A DNA stretch of 64,000 bases from NCBI RefSeq assembly GCF_011382965.1, contig NZ_CP049934.1, positions 744,001 to 808,000 on the forward strand. The letters run 5' to 3'. This document shows, one piece after another, positions 3,517 to 24,219 of this stretch (the first letter of the stretch is position 1; each line of letters opens with the position of its first letter). The position numbers and the translations under genes are program-made. A model generated the notes under the pieces. That model ran no database searches. It saw only the letters and a list, made by a program, of their open reading frames with translations, and was not told the origin of the DNA. The DNA comes from Leucobacter insecticola. Its GTDB lineage: Bacteria; Actinomycetota; Actinomycetes; Actinomycetales; Microbacteriaceae.

Positions 3517-4863
3517 ATGACAAGCTCCACACCAGATGCTGCCTTGGGTACCCGGGTTGAGGAGCCCGCACGCCCCACTGCGGCACGCCGCTGGCCGACG
3601 CGGTGGTGGGATCTTGCGGTCGGTGGTGGACTCGCCGCTATGCTCGTGCCGGGTGGTCTCGGCGCGGTGGAGTGGGGTCGTGACGGCACACTCTGGGGTA
3701 TGAGTCTCGTCGCGCTCGCGATCACGATGATCGGTTTGTTTGCGCTGCTCTACATGCTGCTGGGCCGCGGGGTGCTGCGTCGGGCAGTGCTGGGGCAGTC
3801 CGGCTTCAATGAGTCGCCGCCGATGCGGCGTGATGTCTTGTTTGTGGTGGCCTGGGTGCTGTTGCAGGGCGTCGCGACAGCGGTGAATCCGAGCTTTGCG
3901 ACACTGCAGTTTCTTTCGTATCCGATGCTGTGGTCGGTGCTCCAGCGCTACCGCGATTCGGTGCTCGGCTCGGGATGTCTCGCGCTGTTGGTGGGGCTCG
4001 GCTCGGGAGTCTCGTATGTGCGGCTCGGCATTCCCGAGCCGTGGCTCGTAGCGGCCCTCGTGGGGGCCGGTTCCTTCGGGTTCGCGGTGGCGATGGGCAC
4101 CTGGATCACGCGCATCTACGATCGCGGCGAGGCGCAGCGGCAACTCGTCCAGCAACTGCAAGCGACGCAACACGAAGTAGCGGTGTTGTCAGCAGAGTCG
4201 GGTGCCGCCGCCGAGCGCGAACGCCTGTCACGGGAACTACACGACACTCTCATGCAGTCCTTGACCGGGCTCGTGATGTTGAGCGAGCAGGCCGAGCGTG
4301 CGCTTGCTGCCGGTAAGCCAGAGATGGTACAAGATCGGCTCGCGCGGGTGCACGCCGCCGCACTAGATTCGCTGACCGAAGCGCGGGCACTCATTGCACA
4401 CACGCAACCGCTCGGGGATGGTGGGCTTGAGGTCACCCTGGCGCGGGTTGTCGAGAGGCTTCGCGCCGACACCGGGCTTGATGTTGACCTTGCTGTTGGC
4501 TCCTTCTCCCTCGACCGGGAGCGGCAGGTGGTGCTGCTCCGGGCAACCCAGGAAGGGCTCGCAAACGTCCGCAAACACGCCCGGGCCTCGGAGGTGTGGG
4601 TCTCACTGGCTGAAGATGCGGGCGATAGCGTCGCGGTGCTGCGGATCCTGGATAACGGGGTCGGGCCGGGTGATCTGGGCAGGTCTGGCTCCAGCGGCTT
4701 TGGCCTCAGTGGCCTCAGCGACCGCGTGCGTGCGGTGGGCGGCACCGTGAGCTTCGGATCCGGAGCTTCTGGTGGGGCCCTGCTTGAAGTGCGTCTGCCG
4801 CTTGCACGCGCCAAGACCCACAGTGTTGGAGGGCCGATCCACAAGCAGGAGGGGCAGTTATGA
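3517..4863 (+). CDS. membrane sensor histidine kinase, NarL/DesK-type (HisKA_3)
   Basis: This 448-residue two-component sensor has an N-terminal half with about five hydrophobic segments (residues 25-205) and no large external domain, suggesting it senses the membrane or its exporter partner. A coiled-coil linker (about 205-235) leads to the dimerisation/phosphoacceptor box RELHDTLMQSLTG, with the predicted phosphorylated His at residue 242. The HATPase_c domain follows, with the N-box region EGLANVRKHARA and the G-boxes DNGVGPG and SGFGLSGLSDR. The gene begins 37 bases after the permease and overlaps the response regulator by 4 bases (ATGA). The pair is expected to control the exporter operon or envelope stress genes; the signal is unknown. 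Confidence 0.92.
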   Translation: MTSSTPDAALGTRVEEPARPTAARRWPTRWWDLAVGGGLAAMLVPGGLGAVEWGRDGTLWGMSLVALAITMIGLFALLYMLLGRGVLRRAVLGQSGFNESPPMRRDVLFVVAWVLLQGVATAVNPSFATLQFLSYPMLWSVLQRYRDSVLGSGCLALLVGLGSGVSYVRLGIPEPWLVAALVGAGSFGFAVAMGTWITRIYDRGEAQRQLVQQLQATQHEVAVLSAESGAAAERERLSRELHDTLMQSLTGLVMLSEQAERALAAGKPEMVQDRLARVHAAALDSLTEARALIAHTQPLGDGGLEVTLARVVERLRADTGLDVDLAVGSFSLDRERQVVLLRATQEGLANVRKHARASEVWVSLAEDAGDSVAVLRILDNGVGPGDLGRSGSSGFGLSGLSDRVRAVGGTVSFGSGASGGALLEVRLPLARAKTHSVGGPIHKQEGQL

Positions 4864-5573
4864 TTCGCGTCATGGTCGTTGACGATCACCCCATCGTCCG
4901 GTCAGGCATTGTCGGCCTGCTCGAAACGGAACCCGATGTTGAGGTGGTCGCTGAGGCAGCATCCGGGGAGGAAGCCCTCGTGGTCTTAGACGCGCTCGGC
5001 GCTGCTCCTCCAGATGTGGTGCTGATGGACCTGCGCATGCCCGGCATCGGCGGAGTCGAGGCGACCGAAAGGATCACCCGTCCCACTGCCGCTCCGGGCA
5101 CGCCCGATGGGCCGGGTACATCGCCCCGCGTGCTGGTATTCACGACCTATGAAGACGACGACCAGATTCTTGCAGCGATTGAGGCCGGTGCGAGTGGATA
5201 CCTGCTGAAGGCCGCGCCCGCAGATGAGCTCGCCGCCGGTGTGCGGGCGGTGGCCGCCGGTGTGCGGGCGGTGGCCGCCGGGCAGACCGTGCTTGCACCC
5301 TCGATCGCGGCGCAGCTTGTCGCGCGCGCCGTTTCGCCGCGCGCCGATGTTCGGGCGAAACCGGAACTGACGCCGCGCGAGCACGAGATTCTGGCCCTTG
5401 TCGCGCAGGGGCTCAGTAATCCTGACATCGCCGTTCGCCTCTTCATTGGCGAATCCACCGTCAAGACACATCTGCTTCACGTCTTCGAAAAGTTGGAGGT
5501 GCGCGATCGCACCCGCGCTGTTACCCGCGCGATGGAGCTCGGGATCCTGGGTTACCGCGCTGGTGAAGTCTGA
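4860..5573 (+). CDS. NarL/LuxR-type response regulator with a 7-residue duplication
   Basis: This 237-residue DNA-binding response regulator is the partner of the kinase it overlaps. The receiver domain has the acidic pair D8-D9, the predicted phosphoacceptor D57 in LMDLRMPG, the switch Thr in FTTYEDD and the conserved Lys in YLLKAAP. The C-terminal LuxR helix-turn-helix contains LTPREHEILALVAQGLSN and STVKTHLLHVFEKL. Between the domains, the sequence GVRAVAA occurs twice because of a perfect 21-base tandem duplication at 5232-5273. Relatives carry this helix-5/linker motif once, so the protein is 7 residues longer than expected. A 15-bp terminator hairpin follows 25 bases downstream. Targets are probably the upstream ABC operon, where palindromes lie at 1578-1612. 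Confidence 0.92.
   Translation: MIRVMVVDDHPIVRSGIVGLLETEPDVEVVAEAASGEEALVVLDALGAAPPDVVLMDLRMPGIGGVEATERITRPTAAPGTPDGPGTSPRVLVFTTYEDDDQILAAIEAGASGYLLKAAPADELAAGVRAVAAGVRAVAAGQTVLAPSIAAQLVARAVSPRADVRAKPELTPREHEILALVAQGLSNPDIAVRLFIGESTVKTHLLHVFEKLEVRDRTRAVTRAMELGILGYRAGEV
5232..5273 (+). repeat. 21-bp perfect tandem duplication inside the response regulator gene
   Basis: Two identical adjacent 21-base units (5232-5252 and 5253-5273) encode AAGVRAV twice. The length is a multiple of three, so the frame is kept. Such slippage-prone repeats can expand or contract, which would alter the receiver-to-DNA-binding linker. Confidence 0.9.
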
Positions 5574-13880: not shown

Positions 13881-15166
13881 ATGCCCGCAGTGCTCATCAC
13901 CGGTGCCCAGTGGGGCGATGAGGGTAAGGGTCGAGCGACCGATCTGCTCGGAAGTCGCGTCGACTACGTCGTCAAATTCAACGGCGGAAATAATGCTGGT
14001 CACACCGTAGTGGTCGGCGAAGAGAAGTACGCGCTTCACCTGCTGCCCTCCGGGATCCTGACCCCGGGTGTCACGCCCGTCATCTCGAACGGCGTAGTGA
14101 TCGACCTTGAAGTCCTGAAGGGAGAGCTTGACGCGCTCAGCGGCCGCGGTGTCGACGTCTCCCGGCTCAAGGTCAGCGCGAACGCGCACGTCATCACCGC
14201 CTACCACCGCACCCTCGACAAGGTCACCGAGCGCTTCCTCGGCAAGCGCCAGATCGGCACGACGGGTCGTGGCATTGGCCCGGCCTACGCCGACAAGATC
14301 AACCGCGTCGGGATCCGGATCCAAGACATCTTCGACGAGGGGATTCTGCGCCAGAAGGTCGAGGCCGCGCTCGACTTCAAGAACCAGGTGCTCGTCAAGA
14401 TCTACAACCGCCGCGCGATTTCCGCTGACGAGATCGTCGATGATCTGCTCTCCTACCGCGAGATGCTCGAGCCGATGGTGTGCGACACGGGTCTATTGCT
14501 GCACGAGGCCATGCAGACCGACAAAACGATCCTCTTCGAAGCCGGACAGGCGACCATGCTCGATATTGACCACGGAACGTACCCCTTCGTCACCTCCTCG
14601 AACGCGACCGCTGGCGGTGCCAGCACGGGTTCGGGCTGCCTCCTGCACAGCTCGATCGCGTCATTTCCGTCATCAAGGCGTACACGACGCGCGTCGGCGC
14701 TGGCCCCTTCCCGACGGAGCTTTTCGACGAATCAGGTGACTACCTTCGCACGCAAGGCTTCGAGTTCGGCACCACCACCGGGCGGCCACGCCGCTGCGGT
14801 TGGTATGACGCCCCGATGGCGCGGTACTCGGCGCGCATCAACGGTGTCACCGACTTCGTGCTGACCAAACTTGACGTGCTCTCCGGCCTCGACACGATTC
14901 CGGTCTGTGTCGCCTACGACGTCAACGGTGTGCGTCACGACGAGATGCCCGTCAACCAGAGCGACTACCACCACGCGAAGCCGATTTACGAGGAGTTCCC
15001 GGGCTGGTCCGAGGACATCTCGGGCGCGCGCAACTTCGAGGATCTGCCGCAGAACGCGCAAGATTACATTCTTGCGCTCGAAGCGATGAGCGGATCGCGG
15101 ATCTCTGCCATCGGTGTTGGCCCCGAGCGGGAACAGGTCGTGGTTCGCCATGATCTGCTCGGATAA
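13881..15166 (+). pseudogene. purA: adenylosuccinate synthetase, frame broken by an apparent missing base
   Basis: PurA joins IMP and aspartate with GTP, the first committed step to AMP. The N-terminal part has the P-loop [17 protein letters not shown] (second Lys of GKGK replaced by Arg), NNAGHTVVV with the catalytic His, and [11 protein letters not shown]. At 14634-14637 (TCGGGCTG) the frame shifts: the original frame becomes nonsense and stops at 14864, while the next frame continues with [41 protein letters not shown] and [12 protein letters not shown] to the stop at 15166. Adding one base gives a full-length protein of about 428 residues. Since purA is normally essential for growth without purines, a sequencing error is the likely cause. 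Chorismate mutase follows after 9 bases. Confidence 0.88.
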
Positions 15167-15175
15167 GGCCGCGCA

Positions 15176-15481
15176 GTGACTGCCGCGCAGGATCCGCAGC
15201 AGCGGCTTGAGCGCCTGCGCTCGAGCATCGACAACATTGATGCCGCGCTTGTCCACATGCTTGCCGAGCGGTTCCGCTGCACCCAAGAGGTCGGGGAGCT
15301 GAAGGCCGAGAACGCGATGCCTGCGTCGGATCCGGATCGCGAGGCGCGTCAGACTGCCAGGCTGAAGAGCCTCGCGGAAGACGCGCACCTCGATCCCGAG
15401 TTCGCCGAAAAGTGGTTTAACTTTGTGGTCGCCGAGGTGATCCAGCACCACAACCACATCGCCGACCGGGCCCGCGACTAG
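15176..15481 (+). CDS. chorismate mutase (AroQ class)
   Basis: Converts chorismate to prephenate for phenylalanine and tyrosine synthesis. The 101-residue protein is the all-helical AroQ fold: LERLRSSIDNIDAALVHMLAERFRCTQEVGELKAENAMP, with the active-site Arg and Lys in the first helix and loop, and a second helix pair to the end. The start is GTG 15176, 10 bases after purA. The last 17 codons are duplicated 726 bases downstream (16207-16259), so an insertion has separated this gene from its former 3' flank while keeping a complete 3' end here. The stop TAG lies directly before a MITE-like element. Confidence 0.88.
   Translation: MTAAQDPQQRLERLRSSIDNIDAALVHMLAERFRCTQEVGELKAENAMPASDPDREARQTARLKSLAEDAHLDPEFAEKWFNFVVAEVIQHHNHIADRARD
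15428..15480 (+). repeat. 53-bp direct repeat, left copy (3' end of the chorismate mutase gene)
   Basis: Identical over 53 bases to 16207-16259. This copy is the functional 3' end of the gene up to the first two bases of its stop codon. The pattern resembles the att-site duplication made when an integrative element inserts at a gene's 3' end. Confidence 0.95.
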
Positions 15482-15482
15482 C

Positions 15483-15650
15483 ACTAGTGTCCTGTGTCGC
15501 AAATTCGCTTCACATATCCCGGCACTCCCGCGGCGCATCGCGTCGTTGTCGTCACTCGACGATGCAACGGCATCGCCTCACTCCTCCGCCTCGCGCTGCA
15601 TCCACCGGAGCACCGGGATCTGCAAGGCAACTTGCGACACAGGACACTAG
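15483..15650 (+). mobile_element. MITE-like element, copy A
   Basis: A 168-base non-coding element has imperfect terminal inverted repeats of about 50 bases: both ends read ACTAGTGTCCTGTGTCGCAA from the outside and continue with weaker symmetry (CGGCACTCC against CGGTGCTCC). A second copy in the opposite orientation lies at 24048-24216 with only scattered differences. It encodes nothing plausible. It is presumably moved in trans by a transposase recognising the CTAGTGTCC ends; the family cannot be named from sequence alone. It abuts the stop codon of the chorismate mutase gene and precedes the antitoxin gene. Confidence 0.85.
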
Positions 15651-15682
15651 CAGTCGCGGATATTTCCGTATACGATAATGCC

Positions 15683-15951
15683 ATGAGTGAACATCTCCTA
15701 CGCGGGAAGCTCGTCACCGATGAGCAGATTCAGGCGTGGGCCGATGAGGCCGAGGCGGGTTACGACCTTTCGAAATTGCCAAAGCCCCGTCGGGGACGGC
15801 CCCCGGTTGGTGAAGGCCCCGGTGTAGTGGTGCCCGTCCGCTTTGATGAGGCCACTATTGCCGCGCTGACAGCGCGTGCGCGGGCTGAGGGATCACGACG
15901 CGTTCAGAGGCCATCCGGGCAGCGGTACGCGAGTGGACGAATGTCGCCTGA
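15683..15951 (+). pseudogene. ribbon-helix-helix antitoxin, frame broken by an apparent missing base
   Basis: The N-terminal half MSEHLLRGKLVTDEQIQAW, then KLPKPRRGRPPVGEGPG and VPVRFDEATIAALTARA, is typical of CopG/RHH antitoxins that accompany small toxins. After AEG the frame changes at the G run 15889-15891; adding one G gives ITTRSEAIRAAVREWTNVA and a TGA at 15949-15951, an ideal RHH C-terminus (about 89 residues). The stop then overlaps the toxin start by 11 bases (ATG at 15941), the usual coupling in type II modules. The start is close behind a TATACGATAAT-like -10 box, so the transcript may be leaderless. I treat the frameshift as a probable sequencing error. Confidence 0.75.
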
Positions 15952-16198
15952 GCTACACCCATCTGCTCGAAAGCACTACCGACGTGACCGACTTGACGAC
16001 GAAGCTGTGCGGTACGCAGCAACTCACATTTTCAACTCGCGGCCGCTCGATGATGAAGACGATCCACGCCGCTGGCTCATGGTCGGGAGTGATCCTGCCG
16101 GACGACTCCTGGAACTGGTCATGCTCATCTTTGATGATGGCTACGAAATTATCATTCACGCAATGAAAGCCCGTCCCCAATTCATTGAGGAGCTCTGA
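15941..16198 (+). CDS. putative toxin of a type II toxin-antitoxin pair
   Basis: This 85-residue protein starts MSPELHPSARKHYRRDRLDDEAV and ends IIIHAMKARPQFIEEL. The layout (N-terminal helix with ARKH, central strands DDPRRWLMVGSDPAGRLLELVML, C-terminal HAMKARPQF) resembles small RelE/BrnT-like RNases encoded beside RHH antitoxins. I cannot assign the exact family. His and Arg in ARKH and HAMKAR are candidate catalytic residues by analogy. The ATG overlaps the end of the corrected antitoxin frame. The pair lies between the MITE-like element and the right 53-bp repeat, which marks it as an inserted cassette. Confidence 0.72.
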   Translation: MSPELHPSARKHYRRDRLDDEAVRYAATHIFNSRPLDDEDDPRRWLMVGSDPAGRLLELVMLIFDDGYEIIIHAMKARPQFIEEL

Positions 16199-16206
16199 CT
16201 GATCGC

Positions 16207-16259
16207 GTCGCCGAGGTGATCCAGCACCACAACCACATCGCCGACCGGGCCCGCGACTA
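16207..16259 (+). repeat. 53-bp direct repeat, right copy
   Basis: This is an exact copy of 15428-15480, the 3' end of the chorismate mutase gene, now without the rest of that gene. It is followed by AACGGCGC, presumably the ancestral downstream sequence. It starts 8 bases after the toxin stop. Confidence 0.95.
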
Positions 16260-16280
16260 ACGGCGCATTGCCGGCTCCAA

Positions 16281-16313
16281 CCGCCGGTTGAGCGAACGGA
16301 GTGAGTCGAAACC
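16281..16313 (+). repeat. REP-like repeat
   Basis: The pattern CCGCCGGTTGAGCGAA... GTGAGTCGAAACC is an imperfect hairpin. Related copies occur at 26845-26910 and inside ribD (29561-29632), with split halves near 31417-31510. These look like repetitive extragenic palindromes of this genome. Confidence 0.6.
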
Positions 16314-16355
16314 AAGGGAGACGTTCACCTTGATTTCGACTTGCCTACGGCTCGT

Positions 16356-17294
16356 TCAATCGGCGGATACGAGCTCCTGCCAAGAACGGGCCACGCGGAT
16401 CGCGGTGAGCACCCGCGTTCGTAGGGCGTTGCCGCGTTCGGTGAAACCGCGCTGCAGCTGGGTGTACTCGCGCTTGCCCTCGGGTGTTTCGATCGGGATC
16501 GCGGCAAGCCCGAGCGAAGACACATCGTAGGGCGAGGCCTGCATGTCGACCACACGAATATCGCGCGCGAGCTCGAAAGCGTCGAGCAGCAGTTCGCCCG
16601 GGATGATCGGGCCGAGCTTTGCCGCCCACTTGTAGACGTCCATGCCGGCGTGCAGGCAGCCCGCCTGCTCCAGCTCCGGCTGCGTCTCGCGCGTCGGCTG
16701 CACCGTGTTCAGCGGCGCCGCCTCGGGGGTGAAGAACCGGAACGCGTCGAAGTGGGTACACGCGATCGGATGTTCCTCCACCACCAGGTCGGTCGCCTCG
16801 TGGCCAATGCGCAGCGGCAGCGCGGCGTGGCGGATCTGCTCGGGGGTCATGCGGTAGACCATCGCCCACTCGTGCAGGCCGAAGCAGCCGTAGCGTGGGG
16901 TGCGTTCGAGGGTCGCAGTGAGGAGTTGCTCCACATAGTCGACGGTGGCGCCGCGCGTGGCGAAGAACTCGGTGAGGTCAACAACAGAGCCTGAAGCCTC
17001 GGATCCCGGCGCGATAGATGCCGCAGCGGTGCTGGTGTAGTGCCGCCAGGATCCGCGATCCGCGTCTTCAAGAAACACCCCGGCACCGGGGTGCCAACGT
17101 CGCAGCTCCCGCGGTTTCACGGAGTAGTAGGTCCACAGGAAGTCTTCGACCGGATGCTTCTCACCGCGCTGGCTTCGCTCGCGGTGTGCGAGGGAGAGCG
17201 CGTCGGCGCGTTGCTCGTGTGCTGCCGCGAGTGGTTGCCACTGTGCGGCGGGGATCCTGCGCACCGTGGAGGTCGAAATGCTGCTGGCGGTCAC
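16356..17294 (-). CDS. conserved actinobacterial protein, often labelled 3-methyladenine DNA glycosylase
   Basis: About 312 residues from GTG 17294. The conserved stretches HPVEDFLWTYYSVKPRELRRWHPGAGV, YGCFGLHEWAMVYR and HFDAFRFFTPEAAPLNTVQPTRE recur in an actinobacterial family that databases often call 3-methyladenine DNA glycosylase. I see no HhH-GPD or AAG motif that would prove that activity, so the name should be treated with caution. Several His, Tyr and Asp residues are strongly placed and suggest an enzyme. A GTG at 17372 allows 26 more N-terminal residues; it starts 6 bases after the S4-domain gene and would couple the two. I prefer the shorter form because conservation seems to begin near RRIPAAQW. 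Confidence 0.75.
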   Translation of the reverse strand: MTASSISTSTVRRIPAAQWQPLAAAHEQRADALSLAHRERSQRGEKHPVEDFLWTYYSVKPRELRRWHPGAGVFLEDADRGSWRHYTSTAAASIAPGSEASGSVVDLTEFFATRGATVDYVEQLLTATLERTPRYGCFGLHEWAMVYRMTPEQIRHAALPLRIGHEATDLVVEEHPIACTHFDAFRFFTPEAAPLNTVQPTRETQPELEQAGCLHAGMDVYKWAAKLGPIIPGELLLDAFELARDIRVVDMQASPYDVSSLGLAAIPIETPEGKREYTQLQRGFTERGNALRTRVLTAIRVARSWQELVSAD

Positions 17295-17377
17295 CCTGCG
17301 AGTGTACCCGGACCTTGCTGTCGACCCCGCGGGCCGCGTTCGTGGCTGCGGTTCACCGTCGAGCTCGTGCACGACCG

Positions 17378-22855: not shown

Positions 22856-24052
22856 GTGAGCGACAATCCGAGAGCAGTCCCAATCGCGGATCCCATGATC
22901 GACCCGAAAACTGCCGAGGTAGCCGCAGAAGCGGCAGTGTCTGTATCCCAAAAGGCATCCGGGTCCGCAGCATCGAAGCCCCGGATCGCGGTCTGGGACA
23001 ATGCCCGTTTTGTCCTGATCGCGCTTGTGGTCATCGGTCACACTATTTCGACGGTGCGCACCGATTCAGACTTTGCATTCGGTCTCTACGCCTACATCTA
23101 TCTCTTTCATATGCCTGCAATGATCCTGCTCTCCGGCATGTTCTCTCGAACCGAGGTCAATGCGAAGGCTTTCCGCGGTGTCGTGCAACTGATCGTGCTG
23201 TGGTTGGTCTGGGAGGGGATCTGGGCGATCCTGAATTTCTGGGTGGAGGGCAGGCCTCTCGGCAAGAACTTCCTCGTGTCGCCCGCGTGGACGCTCTGGT
23301 TCATCGTCACCCTCGTAACGATGCGCATTCTGTTGCCGTACATCGCGAGACTTCGCCACCCGCTCATGTTCTCGATCGCTATCGCGCTCATCGCCGGGCT
23401 CAGCCCGGAGATCGGCAGCCAGTTCTCTGCCTCGCGCACCCTCTGTTTTTTCCCCTTCTTTGTCGCGGGGTGGCTGATTCGGGATCGCGGTGTGCTCGAC
23501 GGCGCCTGGTTCATGAGCCCTGCCCGGGCGGCTCGCGCGACGGGGTGGGCTTTGCTCGGAGCGATCGGGATCGCCTTCTTGCTTGTGCCCCAGCTGCGCA
23601 GTGAGTGGCGCATCGACAAGTGGCTCACCTGGCGCGACAGCTATGGCTGGTTGTTTGCGAATGCTCCGCTTGGAGACTGGAAGCCGAGCGAGTGGTTTGC
23701 GATTTCAGGCGGCGGGATCGTTGTGGCTGCGTCACTATTGCTGCTCGCCGGGGCCATGACGCTCGCGCTCCTTCTGGTGGTGCCGCGTCGGGCTAGCGTC
23801 ATAACGGTGTGGGGATCCCGCACCCTCTTTGTCTACCTGTTGCACGGCCCGGTTGTCTGGGTGCTGCGTGAGACGGGCAGCATTGCCGCGATCAACTCGC
23901 TCACGATTGGGCCGATTTCGGTCGGCGTACCGGTGATGATTTTGGGGGCGGTCGTGTTGACCATGCTGCTGTCGATGACCTGGGTGACTCGGGCCTTCAA
24001 ACCGATTATCGAACCCTCTGTCGATTGGATGCTACAGCGCCCGTCACACTAG
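22856..24052 (+). CDS. acyltransferase 3-type multi-pass membrane protein
   Basis: A 398-residue membrane protein begins, after a soluble 45-residue N-terminus, with WDNARFVLIALVVIGHTIS. This holds the catalytic-type His and the Arg of the acyltransferase 3 superfamily. About ten hydrophobic helices follow, including YIYLFHMPAMILLSGMF and the final ones near residues 325-385. Such proteins transfer acetyl or succinyl groups to exopolysaccharides, lipids or peptidoglycan. GTG 22856 has AAGG just upstream. The stop codon TAG (24050-24052) lies inside the terminal repeat of the MITE-like element, so the original C-terminus may have been slightly different. Confidence 0.87.
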   Translation: MSDNPRAVPIADPMIDPKTAEVAAEAAVSVSQKASGSAASKPRIAVWDNARFVLIALVVIGHTISTVRTDSDFAFGLYAYIYLFHMPAMILLSGMFSRTEVNAKAFRGVVQLIVLWLVWEGIWAILNFWVEGRPLGKNFLVSPAWTLWFIVTLVTMRILLPYIARLRHPLMFSIAIALIAGLSPEIGSQFSASRTLCFFPFFVAGWLIRDRGVLDGAWFMSPARAARATGWALLGAIGIAFLLVPQLRSEWRIDKWLTWRDSYGWLFANAPLGDWKPSEWFAISGGGIVVAASLLLLAGAMTLALLLVVPRRASVITVWGSRTLFVYLLHGPVVWVLRETGSIAAINSLTIGPISVGVPVMILGAVVLTMLLSMTWVTRAFKPIIEPSVDWMLQRPSH

Positions 24053-24216
24053 TGTCCCGTGTCGCAAGTTGCTTTGCAGATACCGGTGCTCCGGTGGATG
24101 CATCGCGAGGCGGAGGAGTGAGGCGATGCCGTTGCATCGTCGAGTGACGACAACGACGCGATGCGCCGCCGGAGTGCCGGGATATGTGAAGCGAATTTGC
24201 GACACGGGACACTAGT
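24048..24216 (-). mobile_element. MITE-like element, copy B
   Basis: About 169 bases, the reverse complement of copy A at 15483-15650 with scattered substitutions, and the same ACTAGTGTCC(C/T)GTGTCGCAA termini. It lies exactly between the convergent acyltransferase and ABC exporter genes. One end supplies the stop codon of the first gene; the other end forms the palindrome GGACACTAGTGTCC (24207-24220) touching the last codons of the second. The stem-rich structure may serve as a terminator. Confidence 0.85.
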
Positions 24217-24219
24217 GTC

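Follow-up and report, generated by a model that had tools for sequence, protein, structure and literature searches.

A toxin-antitoxin operon between duplicated ends of the chorismate mutase gene in Leucobacter insecticola, and a possible origin by insertion with long target duplication

In Leucobacter insecticola a small operon of a type II toxin-antitoxin (TA) family is flanked by two identical copies of the last 53 bases of the chorismate mutase gene (cm). In the reading that we prefer, to which we assign a probability of about one half, the 3' end of cm captured a bare TA operon through an illegitimate insertion, in the course of which 53 bp of the target were duplicated. This reading is built on the repeat itself, on one empty site in a congener, on boundaries of the shared DNA that coincide with the bare operon, and on the recurrence of the arrangement at other genes with other lengths of duplication. 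How small TA operons enter chromosomes without a visible mobile element is an old question, and the duplicated ends of protein genes beside such operons may be the footprint of the event.

Results

The window analyzed here is a stretch of 64 kb, positions 744001-808000 of a single 2.9-Mb contig, and all coordinates of the cm locus refer to it. As evidenced by self-comparison of the window, the bases 15428-15480 recur as a direct repeat at 16207-16259 with 53/53 identities and a spacing of 779, just as the preliminary description of this DNA had claimed. No other direct repeat of at least 40 bases is found in the 64-kb window, and a match of 53 bases is far above chance. The first copy (15428..15480, forward strand) is the 3' end of cm (15176..15481, forward strand; Pfam CM_2, E 6.1e-23; NCBIfam PRK09239.1 above cut-off) and reaches as far as the second base of the stop codon, so that only the final base of the gene is missing from it. 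The host gene was said to keep an intact 3' end, and its frame 15176-15481 is indeed whole, with the CM_2 match. The second copy (16207..16259, forward strand), an orphan duplicate of the cm end, starts 8 bases past the toxin stop codon (16196-16198) and lies within no recognized gene. Further downstream follows a convergent gene on the reverse strand (16356..17372), a homologue of which is present near cm in 7 of the 29 loci from relatives. On the other side of cm, purA is split across two overlapping frames, 13881-14864 and 14816-15166.

The interval of 726 bases between the repeat copies contains one MITE copy and the TA operon, and nothing else. The MITE copy (15484..15650, no strand assigned) measures 167 bp including a CTAG at each end; its inverted ends span 27 nt each (15484-15510 and 15624-15650), and the genome carries 13 further near-full-length copies of it; the inverted ends and these copies confirm the MITE-like element that had been proposed between the repeats. 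Given the 13 other genomic copies, the MITE at cm is a separate arrival, and its position inside the unit suggests that it inserted after the TA operon. A second copy within the window, at 24049-24217, is inverted and 96% complementary. We rejected the MITE as the carrier of the cassette, as its inverted ends enclose only the 167 bp of 15484-15650, with the TA operon outside. Once the MITE and a single CTAG are subtracted, the TA unit at cm comprises 563 bp and is without a transposase, an integrase or terminal inverted repeats of its own.

In relatives, the TA pair consists of overlapping genes with a ribbon-helix-helix antitoxin ahead of the toxin, as in type II systems, and by family the cassette is a type II TA operon, toxicity and neutralization being putative. 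The toxin gene (15941..16198, forward strand) encodes 85 amino acids and was assigned from its database relatives and from a weak BrnT/RelE-like fold resemblance. Ahead of it lies the antitoxin gene region (15683..15940, forward strand), identified by ORF reading and by intact relatives that match RHH_1. Its frame is broken: starting from the ATG at 15683 there is no stop before the toxin frame, and the conserved C-terminal residues are found in a different frame. A profile search with this local antitoxin piece yielded no ribbon-helix-helix match, and the same type of search found RHH_1 in 3/3 tested antitoxins of relatives. The region preceding the antitoxin (15651..15682, forward strand) is the presumed promoter, and DNA in common with other TA units starts at 15647-15668 in the best matches. 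The antitoxin/toxin pair noted previously is thus real as a family, with RHH_1 in 3/3 antitoxins and 257 relatives of the toxin, but in this assembly the antitoxin frame does not stand. Because of this break, present addiction at the cm locus is doubtful, unless the break is an assembly error, which is conceivable since purA is likewise split.

The 257 database relatives of the toxin were obtained at E 1e-3 or better, and those that carry a name among the best 120 of the 257 belong to Actinomycetota as far as names tell. The toxin occurs in 16/60 genomes at the level of close relatives, in 41/299 of the family and in 93/396 of the order, with the own genome counted in each set. There are 34 plasmid records with a toxin match, and p545, a 3.6-kb plasmid of Propionibacterium freudenreichii, carries one such TA unit. 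No Pfam or NCBIfam model, the BrnT profile included, matched the toxins tested. With the predicted toxin model (pLDDT 84.9), Foldseek returned no match at E 0.001 or better; the first was 7vd7, a TA complex from Salmonella, at E 0.02, followed by BrnT (3u97) with a TM of 0.65 and E 0.07, and the model is also weakly like HigB2. A toxin profile run against solved chains found 9sdc_C, named Toxin, at E 2e-6. A virus origin of the toxin was discarded, as none of the 116 stretches that the pattern matched in viral contigs encodes it. When window positions 15176-16400 were compared with other TA loci, all matches of at least 300 bases fell inside 15647-16201, so that the operon is what the different hosts share.

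We further compared the cm locus among relatives. With the cm of the window as a query, a match was obtained in 51 of 60 genomes including the own one (50/59 relatives), and a second cm 3' end was found in none of the 59 relatives, the own genome alone having one. Note that this query is blunt because the cm ends of the relatives differ from that of the window; 3 of 29 loci are without a match of 34/53. In the congener G023, the distance from cm to the convergent gene, counted up to the base at which the alignment of the latter starts, is 189 bp, with a single copy of the cm end and no cassette, and in five other relatives 1.1 to 1.4 kb lie between cm and the convergent gene. The empty-site comparison is one with congeners and includes no strain of the same species. 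In several of the loci (L044, L045, L049, L052 and L060) a palindrome, GAACATATGTTC, precedes the next gene downstream of cm; in these congeners we take it to be SOS-box-like.

In addition we compared the cm end of each relative itself with up to 1.5 kb of downstream sequence. In 28 of the 29 loci the score is at most 12, and in one it reaches 35, against 53 for the window. In this one locus (L051 of genome G028, 1760-1890), 35/35 bases of the cm end appear again 96 bases on, with no TA operon between them, and the second cm end stands behind a C/G-rich low-complexity tract. Either an artefact of the assembly or a genuine small duplication could explain this repeat. The insertion with duplication put forward in the preliminary description is accordingly supported by the empty site of G023 and by the finding of a second 3' end in 0/59 relatives with the blunt window query, and a relative that lacks the cassette and yet has both copies, which formally counts as a refutation of that proposal, was encountered once, as L051 among the 29 loci.

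Members of the TA family also stand between duplications of other protein genes. These are an LPXTG surface gene (L027/L251, 95/102 identities, starting from the last 16 bases of the gene), AIM24 (L088, 237/245), ogt (L159, 152/157), the 5' end of nucS (158/160 in L129/L247 and 66/73 in L123/L248) and an unnamed gene (L113/L249, 129/137 plus a further block at 88%). Across the insertions, duplications of 53, 102, 157, 160 and 245 are found. The two nucS loci, L123 and L129, may go back to one shared ancestral insertion. Genome-wide copy counts cover four of the six protein genes, cm among them, and give two copies plus short matches for the LPXTG repeat, two for AIM24, and two plus one 25-base match for ogt. 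In four congeners of the L159 case (G727, G055, G749 and G718) ogt is without an adjoining TA operon, and G749 carries, 55 bases from ogt, a segment that is 74% like part of the left flank.

Some of these loci show additional features. On the reverse strand of L159, a dispersed element of ~335 bp (~825-1159), with five further matches in the genome, lies between the first repeat copy and the TA operon, placed like the MITE in the window. On the reverse strand of L123 (1127-3087) the TA operon is flanked by two nucS 5' fragments of different divergence, the second of which is followed by an HNH endonuclease-like gene, as judged by eye, and then by another nucS-like stretch. In L088, an antitoxin-like fragment (1917-1988), ~80% like the antitoxin of that locus, is found upstream of the first repeat copy.

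A further group of repeats involves structural RNA genes. In L091, from Isoptericola halotolerans (3903-5375), the 3' end of rnpB is repeated over 29 bp on either side of the TA operon, and the C-terminal remnant of an integrase leads directly into it, both within the rnpB repeats. The 3' ends of tRNA genes are repeated around the operon in L244 and L218; the repeat of L221 reads as a tRNA end by eye, and ARAGORN finds none there. Several other loci were tried as target duplications and rejected: the 60-bp palindrome of L106 (Promicromonospora) has 99 matches in that genome, the repeats of L166 and L183 are dispersed in the genome, and those of L177 are resolvase genes. The repeat pairs of L222, L223 and L175 are 92-97% alike, with relatives at 75-84% elsewhere in the same genomes, and look as if they were kept alike within the genome by recombination. 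All three, L222 and L223 (tRNA-Thr adjoining) and L175 (similar lipoprotein gene), come from one genus, and by eye their repeats are very different between species. Repeats in L250 and L217 are short.

To put numbers on flanking repeats across the family, the 900 bases upstream of each TA operon were locally aligned with the 900 bases downstream. As controls we used positions displaced from the operon, by 1.9 to 3.3 kb in a first run and 1.5 to 3.3 kb in later ones. At a score of at least 25, repeats were present in 10/83 TA loci versus 2/189 shifted positions in the first run and in 23/130 versus 6/262 in the second, and merging of loci with identical toxin ends gave 20/122 versus 6/244. Merging folded in 8 of 131 loci that share a toxin end, among them L089, L163 and L161 with earlier scores of 27, 27 and 29, and L090 was left out. 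With six negatives of the first run restored (L033, L035, L036, L040, L042 and L120), the final count is 20/128 TA loci versus 6/244 shifted positions (Fisher p 5e-6), and at a score of at least 40 it is 15/128 versus 3/244 (p 2e-5). Removal of three plainly dispersed cases leaves 17/119. The flanks were long enough for controls in 70 of the 122 loci, 15 of which pass the score of 25, and the census left out many weak toxin matches as well as L034 and L121 at contig ends. Three control positions were strongly positive; L231 (tRNA-like) and L248 (nucS) fall inside repeats at TA loci, and L243 is a repeat of 195 columns.

The 20 positive loci comprise seven ends of protein genes, representing six genes, four cases of tRNA, tRNA-like sequence or rnpB, six dispersed repeats or their kin, one case of resolvase genes and two short repeats. 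For the ends of protein genes alone, the count is 7/128 against 3/244 control positives that were not classified (p 0.02). Taken over flanking repeats of every kind, the family-wide pattern is strong; restricted to the ends of protein genes, it is modest. As a comparison, ParE loci (PF05016) showed a flanking repeat in 1 of 30 cases, a fraction not clearly below 20/122 (p 0.08). In this one case, L186 (360-1945), the mutM 3' end is repeated over 89 columns, and the two copies enclose a ParE-family TA pair and a further small gene.

Discussion

An insertion with long target duplication is the preferred reading because the lengths of the duplications, the spacing between operon and repeats and the targets all vary, and because the unit is without inverted ends. 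We envisage two routes by which this could have come about. In a break-repair route, a TA-bearing fragment would serve as filler in a broken or nicked region, and the overhang would be copied on both sides. In a template-switch route, a strand would leave its template, copy the TA operon and rejoin upstream of the point of departure. The copied end would leave the struck gene whole. A deletion between the repeats would then remove the source of antitoxin together with the toxin, so that cells losing the operon would be counterselected, and direct repeats that normally collapse might persist through addiction. The MITE would have arrived later than the TA operon. More tentatively, and somewhat short of even odds, bare TA operons may be mobile in their own right via long target duplication, with addiction freezing the repeats, and the same survivorship may whittle islands down to remnants in which a TA operon is left between attachment sites, as with rnpB in Isoptericola.

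The main rival, owing to the rnpB case in L091, is that the repeats represent the attL and attR sites of an integrative element at the cm 3' end that lost its integrase and shrank to the TA operon, or was moved in trans by an integrase encoded at another place in the genome. The 3' ends of genes are classical targets of integrative elements, and an identical 53-bp duplication of such an end would fit an att core. The integrase remnant running into the TA operon between rnpB 3'-end repeats provides a parallel, and a real one also for the island remnant that the preliminary description had considered; the tRNA 3' ends repeated in L244 and L218 point the same way, and the genome of L. insecticola itself holds four Phage_integrase matches. 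The nearest of these (PF00589), however, is ~389 kb away from the cm repeat and the nearest Resolvase match (PF00239) ~202 kb, and a profile search for both families found no match of either within 200 kb. A larger element at the cm 3' end was not seen with the window cm as a query in 59 relatives, a query that is blunt where the ends diverge, and the cm 3'-end pattern has 0 occurrences in viral contigs. The other TA units of the family are found at unrelated genes, where the duplications span 102 to 245 bp, and by-eye reading of the ORFs between their repeats revealed no integrase. The preliminary description had stated that the unit contains no integrase, and only the TA operon and the MITE copy are indeed found between the repeats. 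The attachment-site mechanism that it suggested is not supported, in view of the missing PF00589 and PF00239 matches within 200 kb and of the larger element that was not seen, and the presence of the same TA family between duplications of other genes speaks against a fixed attachment site. We consider this explanation unlikely, albeit the best of those competing with a long target duplication.

Less probable still is a one-sided homologous recombination, by which a fragment or small plasmid with the TA operon beside a cm 3' end would have recombined through the 53 bp. That a 3.6-kb plasmid carries such an operon is consistent with this route, and so are the partial nucS copies of unequal divergence beside the operon in L123/L248; on the other hand, no plasmid or relative was met in which the TA operon stands beside a cm end, and the identity of both 53-bp copies would require a donor from this species or one very close to it. 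It is very improbable that the repeat is an artefact of the assembly, or a tandem duplication that arose by chance and independently of the TA operon: the split purA and the broken antitoxin frame do make small assembly errors possible and L051 has a 35-bp cm-end repeat without TA, but 53 exact bases at a spacing of 779 bp in one 2.9-Mb contig argue against it, as do the coherent operon that the copies enclose and the difference between their outer flanks.

Among known systems, integrative elements at the 3' ends of protein genes share with the insertion at cm a duplicated gene end and an intact host gene; here, in contrast, there is no integrase and no larger element was seen, and the length of the duplication varies between TA insertions. 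With BrnT/BrnA the operon has in common a ribbon-helix-helix antitoxin and, going by the predicted model, a toxin with some resemblance in fold, whereas the toxin has no significant profile match. A literature search over titles and the openings of abstracts retrieved no TA pair inserted with target duplication, save a direct-repeat module from Microcystis. This TA module, downstream of MaOC1, is bounded on both sides by direct repeats of 152 bp (PMC7935541). The common feature is that a TA pair behind a gene is enclosed by two identical direct repeats; the Microcystis pair is ParE/ParD-like, however, and its repeats contain an inverted repeat and begin past the stop codon of the gene (PMC7935541).

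The closest likeness is to restriction-modification systems, which insert with long and variable duplications (PMC3874152); insertion of their genes with long target duplication is treated in PMC3874152, PMC3031569 and PMC2654758, citing Nobusato et al. 2000 and Furuta et al. 2010. According to PMC2654758, they also have addiction and an apparent mobility in common with TA systems. The correspondence consists in an addictive unit without a transposase of its own, in a long and variable target duplication, and in the comparison with genomes that lack the unit. What differs is the nature of the unit, here a ~0.56-kb operon of a type II TA pair in Actinomycetota, and the part that is copied, which is the 3' end of the gene in 5 of the 7 protein-gene cases. 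The pattern ties TA pairs to a mode of insertion known for restriction-modification systems, and the toxin family offers a direct test of whether addiction stabilizes direct repeats.
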